Below, in pieces: positions 51,350 through 64,000 of a stretch of 64,000 bases of DNA. The notes beneath the pieces were generated by a model. It saw nothing but the letters and a program-made list of their open reading frames with translations, was not told where the DNA came from and ran no database searches. The stretch's first letter is position 1; each line of letters begins with the position of its first letter. The position numbers were made by a program, and so were the translations under genes. Source of the stretch: Labedella endophytica (GTDB lineage: Bacteria > Actinomycetota > Actinomycetes > Actinomycetales > Microbacteriaceae); contig NZ_RZGZ01000002.1 in assembly GCF_003990045.1 (NCBI RefSeq), forward strand, positions 868,001 through 932,000. The letters are read 5' to 3'.

Positions 51350-54300
51350 TCAGCCGATGGCGTTCCGGCGCCGGCTGAACCAGGCGCCCGCACCTCCCAC
51401 GAGGAGCAGCAGTGCTGCCAGGAGGCCCAGTCCCGCCGCGTCGGAGCCCGTCACCGCGAGTCCCGACGTGTAGGTGAAGCCACCGGAGAGCGTCGCCGAA
51501 CCGCACTCGGTGGATCCGACGACGGTCACGTCGACCGATCCGGATCCGGCTGGGCTGACCGCGCGGATCTCCGTGTCACTGATCACCGTGACGCTCCGAG
51601 CCGGCGTGTTCCCGAAGAGGACCGCGGTCGCTCCGGTGAAGCACGAGCCGGTGATCGTCACCGTCGTCCCGCCGGAGGACGGTCCGCGCGGCGGCGTCAC
51701 GACGTCCACATCGGTGCCGTCCGGGTCCTCGGGATCGATCGGGCCGGGGACGTCCTCACCGAAGTAGGTGAAGTCGACCGGCTCAGACGAGCCATCGGGA
51801 TCGATGACCACGAGGTCCACCGTGCCCACGGGGTGGGCGGGCGAGTAGACCGTGATGACCTCGTCGCTGATGATCGCGAAGGGCTGGAAGGTCCCCTCCG
51901 GCAGGGCGGTCGGGTCGTTCAGACCGGTCCCCTCGATACCGTCGAAGGTCACCGCGGTGGCGTCCCCGAGGCCCTCACCCGTGATCGTCACGAGCGTGCC
52001 GCCCGCGACCGGGCCGCGGTCGGGGGTGATCGACGTGACGACGGGAGGTGCGGTGTACAGGTAACCGTCCGGCAGGACGGCCGGTCCGTCGACCGCGCAC
52101 TCGCCGAAGCCCGTGACCGTGACGTCGACGGCACCCGCGACCGTGCCGGCCGGGACGACCGCCGTGATCTCGGTGTCGCTGACGACCACGAAGTCGGCCG
52201 GGACTCCACCGAACTCGACGCGCGTCACGCCCGTGAAGCACGAACCGGTGATGGTGACCTCCTCGCCACCGGCCAGCGGCCCCTCCGACGGGTCGACGGC
52301 ATCGACCGTCGTCACGTCGAAGAACGTGAAGTCGGCGGGGGCCGACGGGCCGTCGAACGTGATGAGCGTGACCGGAACGGTTCCCGCTGCGTGCTCCGGC
52401 GTGATCACGAGGATCTCGGTGTCGCTCACGATCTCGATGAACGGAGCGGACTCGCCGTCGATCAGCACGTCGATCACGTCGTCGAAGCCCTCACCGGTGA
52501 TGGTGATCTCCGTGCCGCCCGTGACGGGGCCGCGGTCGGGGTCGAGGGACTCGATGACGGGCGCACCCTCCGGTACGAACGTGAAGGCGTCCTCCGCCGT
52601 CGCTCCGCCGCATGCCGTGGGGTTCACGACGGTCACGTCCACGATGCCGGTTCCGGCCGGGGTGACGACCGTGAGGAGGCCGTCGTCCACGACGGTGAGA
52701 CCGGTTCCCGGCACACCCCCGAAGAGCACCTCGGAGGTCCCGGTGAAGCAGGAACCCTCGATCGTGACGAGCGTGCCACCCTCCTCGGCGCCCGCGTTCG
52801 GGGTCACGGTCTCGATGACCGTCACCGCGACGTAGGTGAACTCCGCCGGGTCGCTCGCGCCACCCGGTCCCGTGACGATCACGTCGACGGGCCCGACGGC
52901 GTGCGGCGGGGTGACCGCCGTGATCTCCGTGTCGCTCACGACCGTGTACTCGGCCGCGGGCTCTCCGTCGAAGGTGACGCCCTCGGTGCCGGTCACGTCG
53001 AGGAAGTCCTCGCCCGTGATCGTGACCGTCGTGCCGCCCGTGACGGGTCCCTCGATGGGCTCGAGGCCGGAGATGCTCGGCGCCGCGAGGTACTCGTAGC
53101 CGTCGGGGATCGTGCCCGGTCCGTCGTCGCCACCCTCGGCGCAGTCGCCGGCGCCGACGACCGTGATGTCCACGAGGCCGGGCGTGCCGGCCGGCGCGAC
53201 GGCCGTGATCTCCGTGTCGCTCACGACGGTGAAGCTCGTCGCGGGGGTGTCGCCGAAGAGCACGGCGGTCGCTCCCGTGAAGCACGAGCCCGTGATGGTC
53301 ACGGTGTTGCCTCCCGCTTCCGGTCCCGCCTCGGGGTCCACCTCCTCGATCGTCGTGACGTCGAAGTAGGTGAAGTCGGAGGGAGCCGAGGCTCCCACGT
53401 CGGTCACGACCTGCACGTTGACGGTCTCCGGCGCGTGCGCTGGAGTGACGAACACGAGCTCCGTGTCGCTCACGATCGTGACGTCGGCCTCCGGCACGGC
53501 GACACCGTCCACGAGGACCTCCTCCGCGTCGTCGAACCCGGCGCCCGTGACGGTCACCTCGGTGCCGCCGACGGACGGGCCGCGGTCGGGCTCGAGGGCG
53601 TCGATGGTGGCCGCGCCGTCCGGCACGAAGGTGAAGGCGTCCTCGATGGTCCCGTCGCCGCACTCCGTCGGGTTCACGACCGTGACATCGACCGTGCCGA
53701 CCCCGGCGGGCGTCGTCGCGGTGATCTCGGTGTCGCTCACGACGGTGATGCTCGCCGCGGAGGTGTCCCCGAAGAGAACGTCCGTGGCTCCCGTGAAGCA
53801 GGAACCCGTGATGGTCACGACCGTGCCGCCGTCCTCGTCGCCCGCGTTCGGTGCGACGTCGTCGATCTCGGCGACCGGGTAGTACTCGAAGTCGCCGGGT
53901 TCGGAAACGCCGGACGGCGCCGTCACGACCACGTCGACGACGCCGGGGACGTCGCCCGCCGGGGTCGTCACGGTGATCTCCGTGTCGCTCACGACGACCA
54001 GGTCCGTCCCGGGCACTCCGCCGAAGGTGACCTCGGTCGCGTCGGTGAAGCCGGTGCCCGTGATCGTCACCTCGGTGCCGCCCGTGACGGGTCCGCGCTC
54101 GGGGTCGAGTTCGGTGACGAGCGGAGCCGCGAGGTACTCGAAGCCGTCCGGCAGCGTGCCCGGGCCATCCTCGCCTCCGAGCCCGCACTCGCCCGCACCG
54201 ACGACCGTGACGTCCACGCTGCCGACGGCGATGCTGGCCGGCGCTGTCGCGGTGATGACGGTGTCGCTGACCACGACCACGTCGGTCGCGGGGACGTCGC

Positions 54301-57300
54301 CGAAGAGCACGGCGGTCGCATCGGTGAAGCAGGAACCGATGATCGTCACCCCGGTGCCGCCCGCGAGCGGTCCCTCATCGGGGGTGACCGTGTCCACGGT
54401 CGTGACGCCCACGTAGGTGAAGTCGAGCGGAGCCGAGGCGCCTCCCGCGTTCGTCACGACGACGTCGACCGTCTCCGGTGCATGCGGCGGGGTCACGAGG
54501 GTGATCTCGGTGTCGTCCACGATCGTGAAGCCGACCTCTTCGCCGTCGATCGTGACCGACGTGGTCGAGTCGAGACCCGTACCCGTGATCGTCACGGCGG
54601 TGCCGCCCACCTCCGGTCCCCGGTCGGGGTCGATGGCGGTGAGGACAGGAGCGCCCTCCGGCACGTAGGTAAATGCGTCCTCGAGCGTCGCGTCGCCGCA
54701 CTCGCCCGGGTTCACCACGGTCACGTCGACCGTGCCGATACCCGCGGGGGTGACGGCCGTGATGGTGCCGTCGTCCACGACCACGACGTCGGTCGCCGGC
54801 TCGTCACCGAAGAGGACGCCCGTGGCACCCGTGAAGCACGAACCCGTGATCGTCACGGTCTCGCCTCCCGGCTCCTCGCCGGACGCCGGCGTCACCGCGG
54901 TGATCTCGGCGACGGCGAAGTAGGTGAATTCACCGGGCTCCGACGCGCCACCGCCCGCGAAGACGACGACCTGCACGGGACCAGGGGCCGCCGCACTCGG
55001 GGTCGTCACGGTGATCTCGGTGTCGCTCACGACGGTGAGCTCGGTGCCCGCGAAACCACCGAAGAGGACGGTCGTCGTGCCGGTGAAGCCGGTGCCGGTG
55101 ATGGTGACCTCGGTGCCGCCCGTGACGGGTCCGCGCTCGGGGTCGAGCGCGGCGATGGCCGGGGCGTCGAGGTAGGTGTAGCCGCCCGGAAGGGTCGCGT
55201 CGCCGCATTCCCCACCGCCGATCACCGTGACGTCGACCGCACCGGCGGTGACGCCCGCGGGAACGAGCACGGTGATCTCCGTGTCGCTCACGACCGAGAA
55301 GACCGTCGCGGGAACGTCGCCGAAGAGCACGCCCGTGGCGCCCGTGAAGCAGGAGCCCGTGATCGTCACGACCGAACCGCCCGCGAGCGGACCCTCGTCG
55401 GGATCGACCTCGTCGACCTCGGCGGTCGCGAAGTAGGTGAAGTCGAGCGGAGCCGACGGACCGACCTCGTTGGTGACGATCACGTCCACCGTCTCCGGCG
55501 CGTGCGGCGGAGTGGTGAAGGTGAGCTCGGTGTCGCTCACGACGTCGAAGTCGGCCTCGATGCCGTCGACCGTGACGCTCGTGGTGCCGTCGAAGTCCGT
55601 TCCCGTGACGATGACGAGAGTGTCGCCGCCCTCCGGTCCGCGGTCCGGGTCGAGCTCGGTGAGCGTCGGGGCGACCGGTGGGAGGTACTCGAAGCCGTCC
55701 TCGAGCGCGCCGTCGCCGGCCTCACCCGGGTTGAGGACCACGACGTCGACGGTGCCGACGCCGGCGGGGGTGACGGCCGTGATGGTCTCGTCGTCCACGA
55801 CGACGAACTCGGTGGCCGGGACACCATCGAAGGTCACGCCGGTGGCGCCGGTGAAGGCGTCGCCCGTGATCGTGACGGCGGTGCCGCCGGCCTCGTCACC
55901 CGTCTCCGGGTCGATGGCCGTGACAACCGTCACGGGGAAGTACTCGAAGGGCAGCGCGGCGGAGGACCCGACGGGCGACGTCACGACGACGTCGACGGTG
56001 CCGGGGCCGCCGGCCGGGGACGTCACGGTGATCTCAGTGTCGCTCACGACGACCAGTTCCGTACCGGGCTCACCACCGAAGGTGACCTCGGTGACGCCGG
56101 TGAAGCCGGTGCCCGTGATCGTCACCTCGGTGCCGCCCGTGACCGGGCCGCGGTCGGGGTCGAGCTCGGTGGTGGCGGGCACGGCGAGGTAGCTGAAGCC
56201 GTCCGGAAGCGTTCCGGGGCCGTCGGGACCGCCGTCTGCGCAGTCGCCGGCGCCCACGACGGTCACATCGACCGCGCCGATGGCGTCGCCCGCCGGCGTG
56301 ACGGCGGTGATCTCGGTGTCGCTCACGACCGTGAAGGACGTGGCGGACTCGTCGCCGAAGAGCACGTCGGTCGCGCCGGTGAAGCACGATCCCGTGATGG
56401 TCACATCCGTGCCGCCCGCGATCGGGCCGGCCTCGGGATCGATCGCGTCGACCGCGGTCACGGCGTAGTACTCGAAGTCGGCGGGAGCGGACGCGCCCAC
56501 GTCGGTGACGACCTGGACGCCGACCGTCGCGGGCACGTGGGGCGGGGAGACCGCGAGGATCTCGGTGTCGCTGATGATGTCGAAGTCGGCGGCGGGCTCG
56601 CCGTCGAAGAGGACCTCTTCGGTGTCGTCGAAACCGGAGCCGGTGATCGTCACCTCGGTGCCGCCCACCTCCGGGCCGCGGTCGGGGTCGATCCCGTCGA
56701 TGACGGCGGCGCCGTCGGGCACGAACGTGAAGGCGTCCTCGAGCGTCCCGTCACCGCACTCGGTGGGGTTCTGCACGGTCACGTCGACGGTGCCCTCACC
56801 GGCCGGCGAGATCACCGTGATGGTGGTGTCGTCCACGACCTCGAACTCGGTGCCCGGCGTGGTTCCGAAGAGCACGCCGGTGGCACCGGTGAAGCAGCTG
56901 CCGGTGATCGTGACGAGGGTTCCGCCGTCCTCGTCGCCGAAGCCGGGGTCGATCCCGGTGACCTCGGTGAGCGGGAAGAACGTGAACTCGCCCGGGGTGG
57001 AGACGCCGTCGGGGTTCGTGATCGTCACGTCGACGGTCGCGGGGGCGTGCGGCGGCGTGACGGCGGTGATCTCGGTGTCGCTCACGACCGTGTAGCTCGC
57101 GGCGGGGTCGCCGTCGAAGAGCACGGCGTCCGCGCCGGCGACGTCCTCGAAGCCGGTGCCCGTGATGGTCACCTCTGTCCCGCCGGTCACCGGTCCCCTG
57201 TCGGGGTCGATCGTGCCGATGGTCGGCACGGCGAGCGGCACGGCCGTGACGGTCGCCGAGGCGAGGTTCAGCGTGACGACGTCGGCGAGGCCAGGAAGGA

Positions 57301-58849
57301 CCTCGACGCGCACGGCCGTCTGGGTGAACGAGGCCGCGTCGGTGCCCGCAGGGTCGCGGAAGGCGCCCGGCTGCTCCTGCACGTTGAGCGTGACGCTCAC
57401 GACATCGTTCACGAGGTCGAGGAGCGGCGAGAGCGCCGTTACGGCGGTCGTGGCGACGGCGGTGACTGCCACCTCGAGGCCGTCGAGGTCGACGGCGGTG
57501 GCGACCACGGGAGCGAGGACGTCCGGCACGAGCGTGTCGGTGACGAGCGTCGTGAGCGGGGTCAGCAGGGTCCCGACCGGGAGACCGACGAGGCTCGTGC
57601 CCGCGAGATCCACGTCGGGGGCGGGCTGGCCGTCGTTGCCGAGGAAGCCTCCGAGCGAACCGGTGATCGTCGTGTTCACCACGCCGATTCCACCGACGAT
57701 GGGGAGCGAGGCGTCGGCGTTGATCGTGATCGCGAGGGTCGTCGAGTTGAGGACGTCGGTCACCGCGTCGACGAGCGCCTCCGGCAGCTGGTCCGTGAGG
57801 ATGTCGCTGATCGCTGCGGTGATCTGAGCGTTGATGGCCGGGTCGTCCAGCAGCTGCGTGTTCGGGGCGAGGTCGTTGAGCGCGTACAGCTCGTCGAGGT
57901 CGATGAGGATCTCGCCCGTACCGAGGTCGATGGTGACCGGCCCGCTCACGAAGGCGTCGGCGGTCGCCGCATCGAGCGCGGTTCCGAGGTCGACGTTCAG
58001 CGTGGAGGTGACCTCCGCGTTCGACAGCGTGACGAGGCCGAGGAGAGTCCGCAGGAGGGCCTGGATCGGCGCGATCAGCTGCGCGCTCGTGTCTGAGATG
58101 GCACCGTCGGTGCCCGCGATGGCGTTCACGGTGGCGCTCGTGTCGGCGAGCGTGCCGTCGAGTCCCGTCGTGAGGTCCCCGAGAGCGGGGCTCTGCAGAC
58201 GGAGCACTCCGCTCGCGACCTGGTAGTCGCTCGTCGTCGTCACGTCCGAGCCGCGTGAGGATTCCGCACGCGCGGACAGCGCTCCGAGCTCGAGGCTCAG
58301 TGTGCTGATGAGGTCGTCGGCCGCGGCGGCGTCGAGCACCGGCCCGAGATCGAGGGTCGTCTGCTGCTCGAGGGAACCGTTGCCGGCGACGATCGCGCCG
58401 GTGCCCGTGATGAGCCCGGACGCCGCGACGGCGCCGTCGACACCGGTCTCCGCGTACTGCCCGGTCGCTCCGAGGTCGAGGACATCGTTGCCTCCGAAGA
58501 GCTGGAGGCCGAGCCCGATGTCGATGAGGCTCAACACGGTCACGTCGAGCGGCGCGTTCTCCGCGCCGCCCGGCGTGAACTGCGAGTACGGGCCGTCGAG
58601 TTCGGCGATGTCGTCCAGATCGACGAGACCGTCGCCGCTCAGGAACAAGGCCTCCGCTTGTGCGCGGTCGCCGGGAGCCGCCACGGCGGCCCCTGCTCCC
58701 GCAGCGGCGAAGAGAGTCGCCACCACTGTCGCGGAGAGCACCCGGAACCATGTCCTGGCCGGGTGCTTCCTGTCTCTGTCCTTCTGGGTTGACGTCCGTG
58801 CGGCATCGTCCGATTGTCCGATTTTCGCCGCGCTCGACCGATAGTCCAT
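51350..58849 (-). CDS. Giant sortase-anchored surface protein with 22 TIG/IPT repeats
   Basis: This 2499-residue protein has a signal peptide (about residues 29-58; hydrophobic VLSATVVATLFAAAGAGAAV, cleavage near AVA-AP). A domain of about 480 residues (about 60-540) with repeated Val/Thr/Asp-rich beta segments resembles choice-of-anchor-G-type proteins. Then come 22 immunoglobulin-like TIG repeats (about 541-2456, about 87 residues each; PDRGPVTGGTEVTITG type). It ends in LAVTG, a membrane helix and FSRRRNAIG, a class E-type sortase signal. Even-numbered repeats carry a Cys pair (GSCFTG...ECGD type); odd ones do not. Four-repeat superunits recur every roughly 345 residues. No enzyme motif was found; it is likely a cell-wall adhesin or stalk. 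The ATG is preceded by GAGGGGAAAACACA. Confidence 0.88.
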   Translation of the reverse strand: MDYRSSAAKIGQSDDAARTSTQKDRDRKHPARTWFRVLSATVVATLFAAAGAGAAVAAPGDRAQAEALFLSGDGLVDLDDIAELDGPYSQFTPGGAENAPLDVTVLSLIDIGLGLQLFGGNDVLDLGATGQYAETGVDGAVAASGLITGTGAIVAGNGSLEQQTTLDLGPVLDAAAADDLISTLSLELGALSARAESSRGSDVTTTSDYQVASGVLRLQSPALGDLTTGLDGTLADTSATVNAIAGTDGAISDTSAQLIAPIQALLRTLLGLVTLSNAEVTSTLNVDLGTALDAATADAFVSGPVTIDLGTGEILIDLDELYALNDLAPNTQLLDDPAINAQITAAISDILTDQLPEALVDAVTDVLNSTTLAITINADASLPIVGGIGVVNTTITGSLGGFLGNDGQPAPDVDLAGTSLVGLPVGTLLTPLTTLVTDTLVPDVLAPVVATAVDLDGLEVAVTAVATTAVTALSPLLDLVNDVVSVTLNVQEQPGAFRDPAGTDAASFTQTAVRVEVLPGLADVVTLNLASATVTAVPLAVPTIGTIDPDRGPVTGGTEVTITGTGFEDVAGADAVLFDGDPAASYTVVSDTEITAVTPPHAPATVDVTITNPDGVSTPGEFTFFPLTEVTGIDPGFGDEDGGTLVTITGSCFTGATGVLFGTTPGTEFEVVDDTTITVISPAGEGTVDVTVQNPTECGDGTLEDAFTFVPDGAAVIDGIDPDRGPEVGGTEVTITGSGFDDTEEVLFDGEPAADFDIISDTEILAVSPPHVPATVGVQVVTDVGASAPADFEYYAVTAVDAIDPEAGPIAGGTDVTITGSCFTGATDVLFGDESATSFTVVSDTEITAVTPAGDAIGAVDVTVVGAGDCADGGPDGPGTLPDGFSYLAVPATTELDPDRGPVTGGTEVTITGTGFTGVTEVTFGGEPGTELVVVSDTEITVTSPAGGPGTVDVVVTSPVGSSAALPFEYFPVTVVTAIDPETGDEAGGTAVTITGDAFTGATGVTFDGVPATEFVVVDDETITAVTPAGVGTVDVVVLNPGEAGDGALEDGFEYLPPVAPTLTELDPDRGPEGGDTLVIVTGTDFDGTTSVTVDGIEADFDVVSDTELTFTTPPHAPETVDVIVTNEVGPSAPLDFTYFATAEVDEVDPDEGPLAGGSVVTITGSCFTGATGVLFGDVPATVFSVVSDTEITVLVPAGVTAGAVDVTVIGGGECGDATLPGGYTYLDAPAIAALDPERGPVTGGTEVTITGTGFTGTTTVLFGGFAGTELTVVSDTEITVTTPSAAAPGPVQVVVFAGGGASEPGEFTYFAVAEITAVTPASGEEPGGETVTITGSCFTGATGVLFGDEPATDVVVVDDGTITAVTPAGIGTVDVTVVNPGECGDATLEDAFTYVPEGAPVLTAIDPDRGPEVGGTAVTITGTGLDSTTSVTIDGEEVGFTIVDDTEITLVTPPHAPETVDVVVTNAGGASAPLDFTYVGVTTVDTVTPDEGPLAGGTGVTIIGSCFTDATAVLFGDVPATDVVVVSDTVITATAPASIAVGSVDVTVVGAGECGLGGEDGPGTLPDGFEYLAAPLVTELDPERGPVTGGTEVTITGTGFTDATEVTFGGVPGTDLVVVSDTEITVTTPAGDVPGVVDVVVTAPSGVSEPGDFEYYPVAEIDDVAPNAGDEDGGTVVTITGSCFTGATDVLFGDTSAASITVVSDTEITATTPAGVGTVDVTVVNPTECGDGTIEDAFTFVPDGAATIDALEPDRGPSVGGTEVTVTGAGFDDAEEVLVDGVAVPEADVTIVSDTELVFVTPAHAPETVNVQVVTDVGASAPSDFTYFDVTTIEEVDPEAGPEAGGNTVTITGSCFTGATAVLFGDTPATSFTVVSDTEITAVAPAGTPGLVDITVVGAGDCAEGGDDGPGTIPDGYEYLAAPSISGLEPIEGPVTGGTTVTITGEDFLDVTGTEGVTFDGEPAAEYTVVSDTEITAVTPPHAVGPVDVIVTGPGGASDPAEFTYVAVTVIETVTPNAGAEEGGTLVTIEGSCFTGTSEVLFGGVPGTGLTVVDDGLLTVVTPAGTGIVDVTVVNPTACGGATAEDAFTFVPEGAPVIESLDPDRGPVTGGTEITITGEGFDDVIDVLIDGESAPFIEIVSDTEILVITPEHAAGTVPVTLITFDGPSAPADFTFFDVTTVDAVDPSEGPLAGGEEVTITGSCFTGVTRVEFGGVPADFVVVSDTEITAVVPAGTVAGAVDVTVTGFGECAVDGPAVLPDGYLYTAPPVVTSITPDRGPVAGGTLVTITGEGLGDATAVTFDGIEGTGLNDPTALPEGTFQPFAIISDEVITVYSPAHPVGTVDLVVIDPDGSSEPVDFTYFGEDVPGPIDPEDPDGTDVDVVTPPRGPSSGGTTVTITGSCFTGATAVLFGNTPARSVTVISDTEIRAVSPAGSGSVDVTVVGSTECGSATLSGGFTYTSGLAVTGSDAAGLGLLAALLLLVGGAGAWFSRRRNAIG
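51480..57228 (-). repeat. Coding tandem array of 22 TIG modules in 4-module superunits
   Basis: At DNA level the odd modules that open each superunit share a strongly conserved segment encoding DPDRGPVTGGTEVTITG. It is found near 57190, 56145, 55125, 54090, 53045 and 52000, giving a super-period of about 1.02-1.05 kb. Within a superunit the modules alternate between Cys-free and Cys-pair types, ending in GTVDVTVVNPTECGDG or GAVDVTVVGAGDCA forms. Confidence 0.85.
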
Positions 58850-58976: not shown

Positions 58977-59141
58977 TCAGGGGAGAAACCAGTAGTCGCC
59001 CGTCGGGACCCCCGGACGCCCGTCCGGGGGGTTGCGGTGGACGCGCGCGCCGTCGTATCCGCGCGTGTCCGCACGCACGAGAATCGCGTCCGTGACGGTC
59101 GCCCGGGAGCCACCGTCAGGACGCGGCGGACGATCAACCAT
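58977..59141 (-). CDS. Possible small hypothetical protein
   Basis: This 54-codon frame has ATG at 59141, basic and proline-rich residues at the N-terminus and the ending GVPTGDYWFLP. Codons are of the G/C-ending type seen in neighbouring genes (for example GTC ACG GAC GCG, CGC GTC CAC CGC AAC), and the product does not look like random frame sequence. Against it, no good RBS is visible, it contains a GC-rich hairpin, and it lies right after the pncA terminator. No family was recognised. Confidence 0.3.
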   Translation of the reverse strand: MVDRPPRPDGGSRATVTDAILVRADTRGYDGARVHRNPPDGRPGVPTGDYWFLP

Positions 59142-59164
59142 CCGGACGGTCGAGGACTCCGAAC

Positions 59165-59208
59165 GATGGAGGGCCTGGGAGGAGGTGCGACCTCCCGGGC
59201 CCTCCATC
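59165..59208 (-). terminator. pncA terminator hairpin
   Basis: The stem GATGGAGGGCC-x-GGGAGG (59165-59182) pairs with 59191-59208 with one mismatch and an 8-nt loop, about 38 nt past the pncA stop on the minus strand. Confidence 0.65.
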
Positions 59209-59245
59209 CGACCGTGTGAAAAGACCTCGTCAGCGGCGGCGACGC

Positions 59246-59848
59246 TCAGTCGGCGCTGGGCCCGGCGACGACGGAGCTCGTCTCGAGTAGTCCGCCGTGG
59301 TGGGCGATCTCGGCGAGCGCCGCGGCGCTCGGCTCGGGGGCGACCCCGGCTACGAGGTCGGTGAGGATCCGCACGTGCAGGCCGTGCTCGATCGCGTCGA
59401 GCGCCGTCGCGCGAACGCAGTGGTCGGTCGCGATGCCGACGACATCGACCTCCGTGACACCCCGATCGACGAGGGCCGCGGTCGCGCTCGCCCCGTCGTC
59501 GGTCGTGCCCTCGAAGAGCGAGTAGGCCGGTACGCCCTGCCCCTTCCGCACGTGAACGTCGACGAGCGACGCATCGAGCGCCGGGTGGTAGTCGGCGCCG
59601 GGTGTGCCGGCGACGCAGTGCCGCGGCCACGTGTCCATGAAGTCGGGCTCACCGTCGGCGAAGTGTCCGCCGTTCGAGTTGCCGTCGTCGTGCCAGTCGC
59701 GCGATGCGACGACCACCGAGTAGGCGCCGCTCGTGCGTCGGACGAACGCCGTGACGCCCTCGGCGACGGCCCCTCCCCCGTCGACGCCCAGGGCGCCTCC
59801 CTCGGTGAAGTCGTTCTGCACGTCGACGATGAGAAGTGCGCGCGTCAT
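59246..59848 (-). CDS. pncA: Nicotinamidase
   Basis: This 200-residue cysteine hydrolase converts nicotinamide to nicotinate for NAD salvage and would also activate pyrazinamide. Key parts in order: LLIVDVQNDFTEGGAL (catalytic Asp), ASRDWH and GHF (metal-site residues), WPRHCVAGTPGADYHPAL, VRKGQGV (catalytic Lys) and VGIATDHCVRATALDA (catalytic Cys). Length and motifs match the family. It is a stand-alone minus-strand gene; NUDIX follows in the same direction upstream. Confidence 0.94.
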   Translation of the reverse strand: MTRALLIVDVQNDFTEGGALGVDGGGAVAEGVTAFVRRTSGAYSVVVASRDWHDDGNSNGGHFADGEPDFMDTWPRHCVAGTPGADYHPALDASLVDVHVRKGQGVPAYSLFEGTTDDGASATAALVDRGVTEVDVVGIATDHCVRATALDAIEHGLHVRILTDLVAGVAPEPSAAALAEIAHHGGLLETSSVVAGPSAD

Positions 59849-59947
59849 GGGGTCCTCCGGGCGATCGATTCCTCGTCCTCTGATTCTACGAAGGGCGAAC
59901 CGCCCGGTCGAGTGCCGGACAACTAACGGTCGAGTCGACTCGAGCGT

Positions 59948-60424
59948 TCAGCGCCCGGGTGCCTGGAAGCGCGTGTCCGGTCGGTCTTCGACGGCCGCCG
60001 CGATCCGCGAGCGCATGTCGTCGCTCATCGGCGGGAGGGCGTCGAGCGGGAACCAACGGGCCTCGGTGTTCTCACCGTCGGCCGGCGTCGGGTCTCCCCC
60101 GGTCCAGGCCAGGCGGAAGACGAGGTCGAGGTATTGCGACTCGTCGCCGTTCGGGTAGATCACGGGTTCGGTGACGCGCACCCACGCGAGTCGTTCGACG
60201 ACGGACGAGACGCCGGCCTCCTCCTCCACCTCGCGGACGGCCGCGTACGCCGGCTCCTCACCCGGATCGATGATCCCGGTGACGGGCGTCCACGCGCCGT
60301 TGTCCGTGCGCTTCACGAGGAGAACGTCGGAGCCGTCGAGCACGACGGCGGTGACGCCGGACAACCACAGCGGGTCGGTGCCGATCTTCTCTCGGAGGGC
60401 GATGATGAAATCCGGGGTGGCCAT
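59948..60424 (-). CDS. NUDIX hydrolase
   Basis: This 158-residue protein has a full NUDIX box, GIIDPGEEPAYAAVREVEEEAG (about residues 50-71), i.e. G-x5-E-x7-REVxEEAG, so metal-dependent pyrophosphohydrolase activity is expected. The N-terminal MATPDFIIALREKIGTDPLW and the LSGVTAVVLDGSDVLLVKRTD strand resemble actinobacterial ADP-ribose/NTP-cleaving members. The substrate is not predictable. It lies about 100 nt upstream of pncA and could share its transcript, which would fit NAD(H) or ADP-ribose turnover (weak inference). Confidence 0.88.
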   Translation of the reverse strand: MATPDFIIALREKIGTDPLWLSGVTAVVLDGSDVLLVKRTDNGAWTPVTGIIDPGEEPAYAAVREVEEEAGVSSVVERLAWVRVTEPVIYPNGDESQYLDLVFRLAWTGGDPTPADGENTEARWFPLDALPPMSDDMRSRIAAAVEDRPDTRFQAPGR

Positions 60425-60580
60425 CCCCGGACTCTACCGGGCCGGGGCGGCACGAATCCCTGGTCGAACCTGCCTCACGCCGCTCATCTGCGACCACTCG
60501 CGCGCGCCTGCCCCCGAGTTGACGCATATCGCGGGTGCGCGGCCTCCGCCACCCACCGGATGCGACCACGCGCGCACTCC

Positions 60581-60796
60581 TCAGACGAGAGAGGAGGATC
60601 GCCCGTTCGAGAGGCGCTTCTTGGTCGCTCGTTCCACGAGGATCGGGATGTAATCCCTGACCGGTCGTCCGGTGAGAGCGTCGAACTCGATGCGGGTCGC
60701 ACTCTCGATGTCCGTCCTCGAGATGTCAGGATGCGTGACCTCGAGACGCGCGACGATCTGCTCGAATGTCTCTTCTTCGACTGATTGTCTGGGCAT
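60581..60796 (-). CDS. Small protein resembling the three-helix-bundle dimerisation family
   Basis: This 71-residue protein (MPRQSVEEETFEQIVARLEV at the start) is mostly helical, with PDISRTDIESATRIEFDALT and VRDYIPILVERATKKRL. Length, spacing and the DYIPxLVER-like C-terminal helix recall small actinobacterial proteins annotated as three-helix-bundle dimerisation domains, with no known role. ATG at 60796 is preferred. The frame is open to a GTG at 60886, but no RBS precedes that and the extension is low in family-like features. It is divergent from the Lys-rich/ParA pair. Confidence 0.6.
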   Translation of the reverse strand: MPRQSVEEETFEQIVARLEVTHPDISRTDIESATRIEFDALTGRPVRDYIPILVERATKKRLSNGRSSSLV

Positions 60797-60936
60797 GTGA
60801 CGAGTCTGATGAGCGTATGCATCGTGGTCAACAGGAGAACGGCCCTGCCGTCCGAGTCGCGTCAACTGTTCATCTGACTCGGTCACTACGGTAGGAGGAG
60901 CGGCCCGTCGCGGTCGAACCCCAGGAGGTGCGCATC

Positions 60937-61464
60937 ATGGCGCGAACGAAGAACGATTCGAAGAACACCCCGAGCACGTCGGTCGAGAAGAAGACCGCAC
61001 AGAAGAAGGCGAAGAAGGCCCTCGCGAAGGCGGAGAAGTCGGTTCGAGTCGCTCACGAGGCGGTGAAGTCGTCGAGCAAGAAGCTGCGCAAGGAAGCGCG
61101 AGCCCTTTCCGAGAAGACGGAGAAGCTCACCGCGAAGCACGAGAAGGCCGCGAGGAAGCTCGCCATCGAATCCGCCAAGGTGGCGAAGGTGAAAGCGGCG
61201 AGCACGCCGGCTCAGAAGCTGCCGAGCACGGCGGCCACCCCGCTGCCGACCCCCGCACGCCCTCCCGTGTCCCTCGCTACGACGGGGCGCGACACATCGT
61301 CGACGAAGAAGCGGTCGCTCACCCCGCCGCTGCCGAAGCCGAGCGCGGTCGCTCCGACCCTCATCGAGTTGCGTCGGCAGGCGAAGGAGCAGCAGGTCCG
61401 TGGGTACTCCCGCCTGAGCAAGGCCGACCTCATCGCAGCTCTCGACGCGGCGAGGCGCGCGTGA
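60937..61464 (+). CDS. Lys-rich helical protein with C-terminal SAP/Rho_N-like segment
   Basis: This 175-residue protein is not assigned. Residues 1-85 are very rich in Lys, Ala and Glu and probably form a long basic helix or coiled coil (KKTAQKKAKKALAKAEKSV). A Pro/Ala/Thr linker (about 90-140) follows. The last 35 residues, PTLIELRRQAKEQQ and GYSRLSKADLIAALDAARRA, look like the SAP/Rho-N-type DNA- or RNA-binding helix pair. Histone-like DNA binding is therefore plausible. A strong AGGAGG lies 8 nt before the ATG. Its stop overlaps the GTG of the ParA-like gene by 4 nt, so the two are translationally coupled. Confidence 0.7.
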   Translation: MARTKNDSKNTPSTSVEKKTAQKKAKKALAKAEKSVRVAHEAVKSSSKKLRKEARALSEKTEKLTAKHEKAARKLAIESAKVAKVKAASTPAQKLPSTAATPLPTPARPPVSLATTGRDTSSTKKRSLTPPLPKPSAVAPTLIELRRQAKEQQVRGYSRLSKADLIAALDAARRA

Positions 61465-62222
61465 AGACCATCGCGGTCTACAGCACGAAAGGCGGCGTCG
61501 GGAAGACGACGGCGGCCGTGAACCTGGCGTGGGAAGCGGCGAAAGAACTCCGGGTGCTGCTCTGGGATCTCGACCCACAGGGCGCCGCGACGTTCCTGCT
61601 GAAGGTCAAGCCGAAGCTCAAGGGCGGTGTGGGAGCGCTCGTCGCAGGCCGGAGCACCGTGACGGGAGCCATCCGATCGACCGCGATCGCGAACCTCGAC
61701 GTGCTTCCGGCCGATGCCAGCTACCGCGACCTCGACCTCGTCTTCGATCATGCGAAGAAGTCGGAGCAGCGGGTCGCGAAGGTCCTCGAGCAGATCGACG
61801 ACGATTACGACGTGGTGATCCTGGACTGCCCGCCCGGTGCATCGCTGGTGGCCGAGAACGCCGTGTTCAGCGCGCACGTCGTCGTGGTCCCGCTCGTGCC
61901 GTCGCCATTGTCGATGCGATCACTCGAGCAGGTCACCGAGTTCGTGGCAGATGCCGGGTCCAAGGTGCGCGTGATCGGCTTCCTGTCGATGGTCGACCGG
62001 CGGAAGACCCAACACCGTGCGGCCGTCGACGAGCTTCCACAGGCCGACAGCTCGGTCACGGACATCGTCGTTCCGGCGACCGTCCAGGTCGAGCGGATGG
62101 GCACCGTTCGGGAGCCCATCGGCCGTTACGCCCCCACCTCCGAGGCCGCGCTCGCCTTCGGCGAGCTCTGGAAACGCGTCGCGTCGACCGCGAAGGTCAA
62201 AGCCCGCGGAAGCAAGCGCTGA
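61461..62222 (+). CDS. Orphan ParA/Soj-family ATPase
   Basis: This 253-residue deviant-Walker ATPase has MKTIAVYSTKGGVGKTTAAVN (Walker A with the signature Lys at KGGVGKTT, residues 10-17), LLWDLDPQGAATFLL (A'), and DYDVVILDCPPGASLVAENA (Walker B). VVVVPLVPSPLSMRSLEQV and GFLSMVDRRKTQHRAAVDEL follow. There is no ParB or parS-like array next to it. The coupled partner is the Lys-rich protein encoded just upstream, which may take the role of the DNA or cargo adaptor (inference). Possible roles are positioning of a cargo or chromosome region rather than plasmid partition. Confidence 0.88.
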   Translation: MKTIAVYSTKGGVGKTTAAVNLAWEAAKELRVLLWDLDPQGAATFLLKVKPKLKGGVGALVAGRSTVTGAIRSTAIANLDVLPADASYRDLDLVFDHAKKSEQRVAKVLEQIDDDYDVVILDCPPGASLVAENAVFSAHVVVVPLVPSPLSMRSLEQVTEFVADAGSKVRVIGFLSMVDRRKTQHRAAVDELPQADSSVTDIVVPATVQVERMGTVREPIGRYAPTSEAALAFGELWKRVASTAKVKARGSKR

Positions 62223-62250
62223 CCGGCTTCCCGAGGACGGAGAGGATCGA

Positions 62251-63735
62251 TCAGGCGTTCGAGAGGCTGTCCCCGCAGCGGAAGAACGCCGTGGTGAGCG
62301 CGTCGACGCCCTCCACCGTGGTCCACGGAAGGGTCTCACCGACCGTCCCGAGGGCGTAGATCGTGAAGACGAGGGTCGAGCCGTCGGCCGCCTCGATGAT
62401 GCCCGACAGTGTGTATGCGGAGAGGATGTACCCCGTCTTCGCGAACACGTGGCCGCGCGCCGCCTCGTTGTCCCCCGTGAAACGCCTGTCCTCGTCGAGG
62501 GTGCCCGTCTCCCCGGCGACCGGGAGGCCCGCCTCGATGGCTTCGAGCTCGCCGACGCCGTCCTCCACGAGCCCGAACAACCGAGTGAGGTACGACGGCG
62601 GCACTGCGTTGGCCGTGCTGAGACCGGAACCGTCGGCGACGACGATGCCGTCCGTCGGGATGCCGTACTCGGCGAGCGCCTCGGGGATGGCCTGCTGCAG
62701 CGACGCGAAGGTGTTGCCGGCTCCGAGCTCGATCGAGACGAGCCGTGCGAGCGCCTCGGCGATCATGTTGTCGCTCTCGAGCAGGCTGTCGTGGATGAGG
62801 GAGGCCACCGTCGGGGACGACACCGAGGCGAGTTCGTCGGCTCCGACGGATGCCGTGCCCGTCTCCACCGTCGCGCCCGGGAAGTACTTCGCGAAGGCCT
62901 CGGCCGTGCGCGCCACGGGGTCGGTGCCTCGCGGCGAGCCGGTGCGCGTCGGGTCCTCGCGATCGCCGTCGACCTGGAGGGCCGTCACCCGCGTCTGGTA
63001 CCCCTCGGCCGGCGAGTTCGGGTTCCAGTCGGGGCGCCAGTCGTCCGTGCCGAAGAGTGAGGAGTCGATGACGAGGCGGCTCACCGCGGTCGTCTCCCCC
63101 GCGGCGGTGAGGGCGACGGTGGTCTTCGCCGCGAGATCGTCGAGATGCGCGGCATCCGTGTAGACGGATTCCTCCCCGGTCGGCATCCGCGAGAGCGTGA
63201 TGTCCCCGCCGCCCACGAGCACGATCGTGCCGGGCTCGTCGCCCGCGACGACGCGCGTCTCGAAGGTGCGATCGGCCCCGAAGACGGCGAGCGCCGCCGC
63301 CGAGGTGATGACCTTGAAGGTGCTCGCGGTGCGGGCGGGGGTGTCGCCGGACCGGTCGAACAGGATCTCCCCCGTGTCGGCGTTGCGCACCTGCGCCTGG
63401 AGCGTCGCGAGTCGCGGGTCGGCGGCGGCGTCCGCGACCGAGCACATCCGCGGGGCCGTCGCCGGCACCGGATCGTCCGCGACGATGCGCGGGTCCTCGG
63501 TGGGTGTCGGGGTCGGAGTGGGGGTGACGACAGGCGCCGCCGTCGCTGTGGTCGCGACGGCTCCGAGGGACAGGACCGATGCTCCGACGAGCACCGCGGC
63601 GAGCGCTGCCGCGACGATGGACCGCGCCGCGCCACCGGGCGCGAACGGCCCCCTCCGCCGGATGTGCCGCGCGGCACCCTCCACCGTCCCGGGTCGCCCG
63701 GTCGTCTCGGGGACAGATGGGGCGGGCGAAGTCAC
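62251..63735 (-). CDS. dacB: D-alanyl-D-alanine carboxypeptidase/endopeptidase (PBP4 type)
   Basis: This 494-residue exported S13-family peptidase trims peptidoglycan cross-links. It has an N-terminal membrane or signal segment (about residues 39-66, then TPTPTPTPTEDP). The catalytic SxxK is in ASTFKVITSAAAL, the SxN in LESDNMIAEALARL and the KTG in VFAKTGYILSAYTL. The family insert domain lies between the first two motifs. The GTG start at 63735 comes only 6 nt after a TAGAAT -10 box, so the mRNA is likely leaderless; an alternative GTG is at 63684. It converges on the ParA-like gene. Confidence 0.92.
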   Translation of the reverse strand: MTSPAPSVPETTGRPGTVEGAARHIRRRGPFAPGGAARSIVAAALAAVLVGASVLSLGAVATTATAAPVVTPTPTPTPTEDPRIVADDPVPATAPRMCSVADAAADPRLATLQAQVRNADTGEILFDRSGDTPARTASTFKVITSAAALAVFGADRTFETRVVAGDEPGTIVLVGGGDITLSRMPTGEESVYTDAAHLDDLAAKTTVALTAAGETTAVSRLVIDSSLFGTDDWRPDWNPNSPAEGYQTRVTALQVDGDREDPTRTGSPRGTDPVARTAEAFAKYFPGATVETGTASVGADELASVSSPTVASLIHDSLLESDNMIAEALARLVSIELGAGNTFASLQQAIPEALAEYGIPTDGIVVADGSGLSTANAVPPSYLTRLFGLVEDGVGELEAIEAGLPVAGETGTLDEDRRFTGDNEAARGHVFAKTGYILSAYTLSGIIEAADGSTLVFTIYALGTVGETLPWTTVEGVDALTTAFFRCGDSLSNA

Positions 63736-63741
63736 TCCTCG

Positions 63742-63747
63742 ATTCTA
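63742..63747 (-). promoter_or_regulatory. -10 box for a leaderless dacB transcript
   Basis: TAGAAT (minus strand) is separated from the dacB GTG at 63735 by 6 nt. The expected transcription start coincides with the start codon, and there is no properly spaced Shine-Dalgarno sequence. Confidence 0.55.
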
Positions 63748-63794
63748 CGAGCGGTCGGCGGGGGACGTCCGCCGACGGTGGAGGAGCACGACCG

Positions 63795-64000
63795 TCACTC
63801 CGTGCACGGCTTCAGCGCGACCGCCGCTCGGCGCGCTCCGGCGTCGACGAGCACATCCACGTTGTCCGTGCGCTGCTCGACGGAACCTCGACCGCGCGGA
63901 AGACGTCGAACCTCCTCCTCGACGACTGCGTCGAGGAGTTGCGCGACGATCGCCGGGTGCGGGTGCACATACGGCCGGTCCCAGAACGGCACCGTCGCCT
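63795..64000 (-). CDS. Unrecognised protein, C-terminal part (runs off the window)
   Basis: The frame is open from the right edge to a TGA at 63795. The visible 68 residues include VPFWDRPYVHPHPAIVAQLL, DAVVEEEVRRLPRGRGSVEQ and an ending AAVALKPCTE. Codons prefer G/C in the third position as in true genes here. A GTG at 63992 could also start it. No domain was recognised. It precedes dacB by about 60 nt on the same strand. Confidence 0.4.
   Translation of the reverse strand, partial: ATVPFWDRPYVHPHPAIVAQLLDAVVEEEVRRLPRGRGSVEQRTDNVDVLVDAGARRAAVALKPCTE

Follow-up and report, generated by a model that had tools for sequence, protein, structure and literature searches.

Partners of ParA-type ATPases are very diverse, and it is on account of unknown partners that ParAs are labelled 'orphan' (parts of PMC10241942). 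Basic N-termini are the rule among these partners, which act through them, as described in passages of PMC12204374. In the McdA-McdB system of the carboxysome, a ParA-type ATPase works with a small, partly disordered adaptor that has a basic N-terminus. McdB also has an invariant C-terminal tryptophan, according to the title of a reference cited in PMC13052382. Granule tethers such as AlgP, PhaF and PhaM are Lys-rich, histone-like proteins with a helical and a disordered part. AlgP spaces polyphosphate (polyP) granules in Pseudomonas (excerpts of PMC9239181); its use of ATP is given as unknown in passages of a 2025 review, which present AlgP and PhaF as one Lys-rich design for polyP and PHB granules (PMC13052382). 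According to the same review, the spacing machinery known for these granules may be incomplete, and it is still to be seen whether their placement costs energy. CHAD domains are polyP binders, and the proteins that carry them localise to the granules (sections of PMC6537752). In Acidithiobacillus the gene order folD-ppk-parA-CHAD is conserved (PMC10892726; also PMC6416229); in print its ParA is taken to act in the partition of plasmids or chromosomes, and the passages of these two papers that concern it propose no granule role. No paper proposing a ParA for polyP granules was found among open PubMed Central papers, and neither of the words polyphosphate and CHAD occurs in a 2022 review of ParA functions (PMC9178275).

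At the locus described here, a ParA gene is in contact with a gene for a Lys-rich protein. The wider clade to which this ParA belongs, and whose other members are mostly paired with CHAD proteins, is a more important finding than the pair itself.

The three-gene block and its ParA

The genome measures 3.67 Mb in 14 contigs, and the window, that is the whole 64-kb stretch of DNA that was analysed, corresponds to C2:868001-932000. Three genes lie at 60581-62222, one small and divergent, one for a Lys-rich protein and one for a ParA. The features are the following (window coordinates).

60451-62250, no strand: three-gene block, without counterpart in the three same-genus genomes searched (tblastn/blastn)
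60581-60886, minus strand: divergent small three-helix-bundle protein (NF046112), starting at GTG 60886 or at an internal ATG near 60796
60923-60928, plus strand: AGGAGG, probable ribosome-binding site of the Lys-rich gene, read from the sequence
60937-61464, plus strand: Lys-rich protein of 175 aa, proposed cargo adaptor (Pfam, alignment, AlphaFold)
60973-61203, plus strand: long basic helix, residues 13-89 of the Lys-rich protein (AlphaFold model)
61360-61458, plus strand: C-terminal helix pair, residues 142-174 of the Lys-rich protein, Rho_N PF07498 (Pfam, AlphaFold)
61461-61464, plus strand: 4-nt overlap GTGA of the Lys-rich gene stop and the ParA start (sequence)
61461-62222, plus strand: ParA-type ATPase of 253 aa, CHAD-associated clade, with a basic C-terminal tail (Pfam, trees)
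61488-61508, plus strand: deviant Walker A motif KGGVGKT, residues 10-16 of ParA, invariant in the 17-row alignments A2 and A3

The start of the Lys-rich gene is better set at ATG 60937, with the AGGAGG eight bases before it. A preliminary description of this DNA had reported a ParA gene overlapping by 4 nt the stop of a gene for a basic helical protein that ends in a SAP/Rho-N-like pair, with no ParB or parS nearby and with a small helical-bundle gene diverging from the pair, and each of these points was borne out. The divergent gene matches NCBIfam NF046112 ('three-helix bundle dimerization domain', E=2.6e-16). It was rejected as a conserved part of the module, the other 19 ParA loci of the family having yielded a single match to it, a weak one at L038. 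The G+C content of the block is 66.0% vs 69.2% for the window, its repeats are ordinary, and no RNA elements reached the gathering score in 59000-64000. The window also encodes, at 51350-58849, a probably secreted protein of 2499 aa with many IPT/TIG-like repeats, recognised by eye. A NUDIX hydrolase gene adjoins the ParA module both in the window (59951-60424) and in genome G050 (L033:8927-9331). It echoes the CHAD-ParA-CYTH-NUDIX operons of Paracoccus described below and the Streptomyces ppk-pptA-nudix operon (reported in a part of PMC8003754); in the window's genus the NUDIX gene is present also at sites without the block.

The ParA matches Pfam AAA_31 (E=3.9e-37) as well as CbiA, and its matches to solved ParA chains go down to 1.4e-32. 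The deviant Walker A motif together with the ParA domain places it in the ParA/MinD family. Solved McdA chains match it at 64 bits vs 93-117 bits for Soj-type chains and 8ray. Its ATPase motifs are those of the ParABS system (Soj-Spo0J), but the locus differs in having neither a ParB encoded with the ParA nor parS sites nearby, and it is not counted as ParABS: the 64-kb window contains no parS-like site at up to 3 mismatches, and the genome gave a single ParB_N match, which is on contig C8 next to another ParA, with five parS-like sites near that pair. A genuine ParB serving the window ParA was searched for genome-wide and not found, the sole ParB and the parS-like sites belonging to the C8 ParA. 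Phage or plasmid origin found no support, the best plasmid match having 45% and the best phage match 32.5% identity.

The Lys-rich protein and its pairing in the Microbacteriaceae

The Lys-rich protein (pI 10.9, 28 Lys) carries a C-terminal Rho_N domain (27.2 bits vs a cut-off of 24.9). The AlphaFold model, made with a 7-row alignment, predicts the helix 13-89 with a pLDDT around 90-97 over most of its length, a disordered linker at 90-134 (pLDDT under 50) and a confident C-terminal pair of helices, 142-151 and 162-174. The seven partner homologues are alike in their basic N-termini, Lys-rich helices and C-terminal helix pairs. The protein is alike in design to AlgP, PhaF and PhaM, being Lys-rich and histone-like with a helical and a disordered part, but it contains no KPAA repeats and is paired with an ATPase. 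With McdB, for which a shared working principle is proposed, it has in common the small size, the partial disorder, the basic N-terminus and the ParA-type ATPase at its side, whereas the tryptophan that is invariant in McdB has no equivalent, the 175 residues including none. The Lys-rich Rho_N protein could equally bind DNA or RNA.

A close ParA homologue is present in 20 of 199 Microbacteriaceae genomes (14 of 85 genera) and absent from 179. At seven of these 20 loci a Lys-rich homologue is in contact with the ParA, upstream in six and downstream in one (L039). Counted from the start of the ParA, the upstream partner has its stop at +4 in five pairs and at -33 in the sixth, and the flanking genes vary among the seven loci, as far as shown. 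At the other 13 loci no Lys-rich partner was found within the fetched stretch, up to 8 kb on each side, and no CHAD gene in contact; L046 has a CHAD gene 3 kb away. The co-occurrence of partner and ParA gave p=1e-6 in a Fisher test, which was set aside as evidence because the partner profile had been built from the seven linked copies.

Partner homologues were found in genomes without the ParA too, those with E between 1e-5 and 1e-10 possibly being matches of Lys composition. A class-wide search found the partner in three of 296 genomes, the window's own counted, and it is nearly confined to the Microbacteriaceae. In the three species of genus g45 where a Lys-rich homologue was found, the gene immediately after it encodes a PHO4 phosphate transporter (identified by Pfam in L177 and L178 and by phmmer in L237); this is a single genus, hence one event. 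In L177:7998-9685 and L178:8001-9833 the homologue that precedes the PHO4/PiT gene, as it does in L237, has no Rho_N match. In three other genomes, which belong to the clade described below, second CHAD proteins have a Rho_N-like pair at their C-terminus, with E values of 2e-5 to 5e-5. These proteins, at L256:1135-2520, L257:1390-2511 and L258:874-2556, are not linked to ParA and have ends 0.1-1.2 bits under the cut-off; each joins in one chain a polyP-binding domain and the terminal domain of the window's Lys-rich partner.

The CHAD-associated ParA clade

The CHAD-associated ParA clade is defined in this analysis, for which a scan of genome contigs supplied at least 80 ParA loci. In a first tree (54 clade rows vs 21 others), the ParAs with a CHAD, with a Lys-rich and with no such neighbour group together with an SH-aLRT of 99. 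In a second tree (44 vs 16 rows; clade rows L182, L185, L186, L190, L229 and L231-L235 of the first left out), the clade has a bootstrap/SH-aLRT of 100/100, the bootstrap not having settled, and the window ParA falls inside it. Part of the 75 other ParA loci served as the outgroup of both trees. The Microbacteriaceae ParAs branch either next to the CHAD-linked rows or among them, a placement that is moderately supported (88/83 in the second tree, 88-90 in the first).

Among 396 genomes of the phylum, 23 had this ParA at E<=1e-60, 21 of them outside the Microbacteriaceae. In 12 of these 21 clade members the gene immediately upstream, in the same orientation, encodes a CHAD protein; its stop is at +4 in eight of the 12, at -1 in two, and at -4 and -25 in one each. 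A CHAD gene in that place was found at seven of ten later loci (six at +4, one at -25), which come from relatives of one of the clade genomes and were kept out of the CHAD profile. Of five named genome contigs, three have CHAD directly upstream by Pfam (L083, L085, L086); L084 has none there, and the contig of L082 begins too close to the ParA to tell. The overlap in the CHAD-ParA pairs is mostly 4 nt, as at the window locus, which differs in having a Lys-rich Rho_N protein instead of CHAD. Both also resemble Acidithiobacillus, compared by its published gene order, where a ParA stands beside a polyP-linked gene. At the 75 other ParA loci, which come from the scan of genome contigs, no CHAD-like ORF was found. 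The CHAD profile was built from the linked set and still detected the different CHAD of L046 at 103 bits; ParA-linked CHAD proteins left out of it scored 156-536 bits.

On plasmids, CHAD was found beside the ParA in six of the 11 places examined, all in Paracoccus, in the order CHAD-ParA-CYTH; a NUDIX gene is present in four of the six and phoB-phoU-pstB lies close to one operon. The ParAs of the Halomonas and Pontibacter plasmids are at the record's start, a CHAD scan of the unannotated Novosphingobium plasmid found none, and the Sphingomonas and Marinobacter plasmid ParAs have other neighbours, phbB adjoining the latter. No CHAD neighbour was found in two deep clade branches (L229, L231, L232; L233-L235), nor at L279, L280 and L282. 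The ParAs of L233-L235 and of these last three loci are low-scoring (213-236 bits), and the neighbours of L233-L235 look by eye like dapB or M16 peptidase genes. At L218 and L219 the gene overlapping the ParA by 4 nt encodes a product of ~404 aa, class V aminotransferase-like by eye, and CHAD is elsewhere in these genomes. The CHAD proteins encoded upstream of the ParA in L215-L230 have a C-terminal tail in common (about ARxxFxxRFAxFD), immediately ahead of where the ParA starts; most unlinked CHAD proteins seem to be without it, and it may be a ParA-contact element.

The polyP link of the ParA clade is strong and rests on gene context. As to the pairing of ParA and Lys-rich protein, it recurs within the family with different flanks but proved not to be general across Actinobacteria, since the ParA's neighbour outside the family is mostly a CHAD protein and 13 of the 20 family loci are without a detectable partner.

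Proposed cargo and function of the module

The reading that we favour, tentatively, is that the window pair forms a ParA/MinD-type (McdA-like) cargo-positioning module, whose cargo would most likely be a polyP granule and whose Lys-rich protein would be the cargo adaptor. The protein occupies the place of CHAD upstream of the ParA with the same 4-nt overlap. We infer its adaptor role, its contact with the ParA, the stimulation of the ATPase and the granule cargo at this locus. ATP-bound ParA dimers would coat the nucleoid, and the Lys-rich protein would use its basic long helix, alone or together with the Rho_N pair, to sit on polyP granules. Its Lys-rich N-terminus would stimulate the ParA ATPase, as in other ParA partners, and granules would be spaced along the nucleoid and shared out at division. 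It is also possible, and we put this somewhat more cautiously, that the whole clade, widespread in Actinomycetota, Pseudomonadota and others, is an ATP-driven positioner of polyP granules with interchangeable adaptors. These would be CHAD proteins in most lineages, swapped in the Microbacteriaceae for a Lys-rich Rho_N protein unrelated to them.

Besides the clade and its CHAD neighbours, the granule reading of the window pair is supported by the CYTH genes in the Paracoccus operons, the published gene order of Acidithiobacillus, the PHO4 neighbours of Lys-rich homologues, the CHAD proteins with a Rho_N-like end, the PPK1 and CHAD occurrences given below, the basic N-termini of ParA partners and the part of AlgP in granule spacing. 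Counting against it are the 13 family loci that have neither the partner nor CHAD in contact, a window genome without CHAD, and the clade branches with no CHAD neighbour. For the Microbacteriaceae themselves, direct evidence for polyP is weak, and the case comes mostly from sister lineages. The window's genome encodes PPK1; no CHAD gene was found in it, and the place upstream of the ParA is taken by the Lys-rich gene. In the family, CHAD is present in 14 of the 20 genomes with the ParA and in 66 of the 179 without it (Fisher p=0.007, kinship ignored). Unlinked CHAD proteins from four of these 14 genomes (G065, G084, G122, G141) were compared with the ParA-linked type, and their membership of it was not supported (95-127 bits vs 156-536 for linked ones left out of the profile).

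The same machine could carry another cargo in the Microbacteriaceae, such as a PHA granule or an enzyme cluster, CHAD having been replaced because the cargo changed. This would suit a genome without CHAD and a family in which most loci have none in contact, as well as the Marinobacter plasmid relative beside phbB and the single Lys-rich design of AlgP and PhaF for two kinds of granule (passages of PMC13052382). We consider it unlikely, given that Lys-rich homologues stand beside the PHO4 transporter and that CHAD is commoner in ParA-positive family genomes.

The preliminary description had suggested a ParA with a non-ParB partner in a chromosome- or cargo-organising role. An orphan ParA, a non-ParB partner and probably a cargo module are what remains of this suggestion; nothing points to the chromosome, and the relatives point to polyP as the cargo. 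A role of the pair in chromosome or nucleoid organisation, in which the ParA would drive a histone-like, DNA-binding Lys-rich protein, is doubtful, even if the Lys-rich helix and the Rho_N/SAP-like pair suit nucleic-acid binding and ParA-family ATPases bind the nucleoid (PMC13052382, in part). Against it, the usual partner in the clade is a polyP-binding CHAD protein, and a full ParA-ParB-parS set is present elsewhere in the genome. The block is, moreover, dispensable: when window 59200-63800 was searched against the same-genus genomes L172, L173 and L174 (tblastn/blastn), the flanking NUDIX and PBP4-type genes were adjacent in all three and 60451-62250 was missing, as is the ParA in 179 of 199 family genomes.

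The patchy spread, the clean empty site in three relatives and the many plasmid-borne ParAs would also fit what is left of the partition machinery of a plasmid or mobile element; the Lys-rich protein would then be a non-ParB centromere binder. This is very unlikely, as the 1.8-kb block holds no replication or integrase gene and no parS-like element, the close plasmid relatives carry CHAD and not ParB, and no plasmid match exceeds 60% identity. That the two genes are mere neighbours without joint function, as the 13 ParAs without a partner and the partner homologues without a ParA might suggest, is hardly credible in view of a pairing at seven of 20 loci with different flanks and a 4-nt overlap repeated in five.

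With the polyP-granule module as the favoured reading, granule placement has a direct and testable candidate in a ParA clade whose genes touch those of polyP-binding proteins, and orphan ParAs in many genomes gain a likely cargo. The adaptor swap in the Microbacteriaceae, if true, would illustrate how systems of this type come to grip their cargo in a different way.
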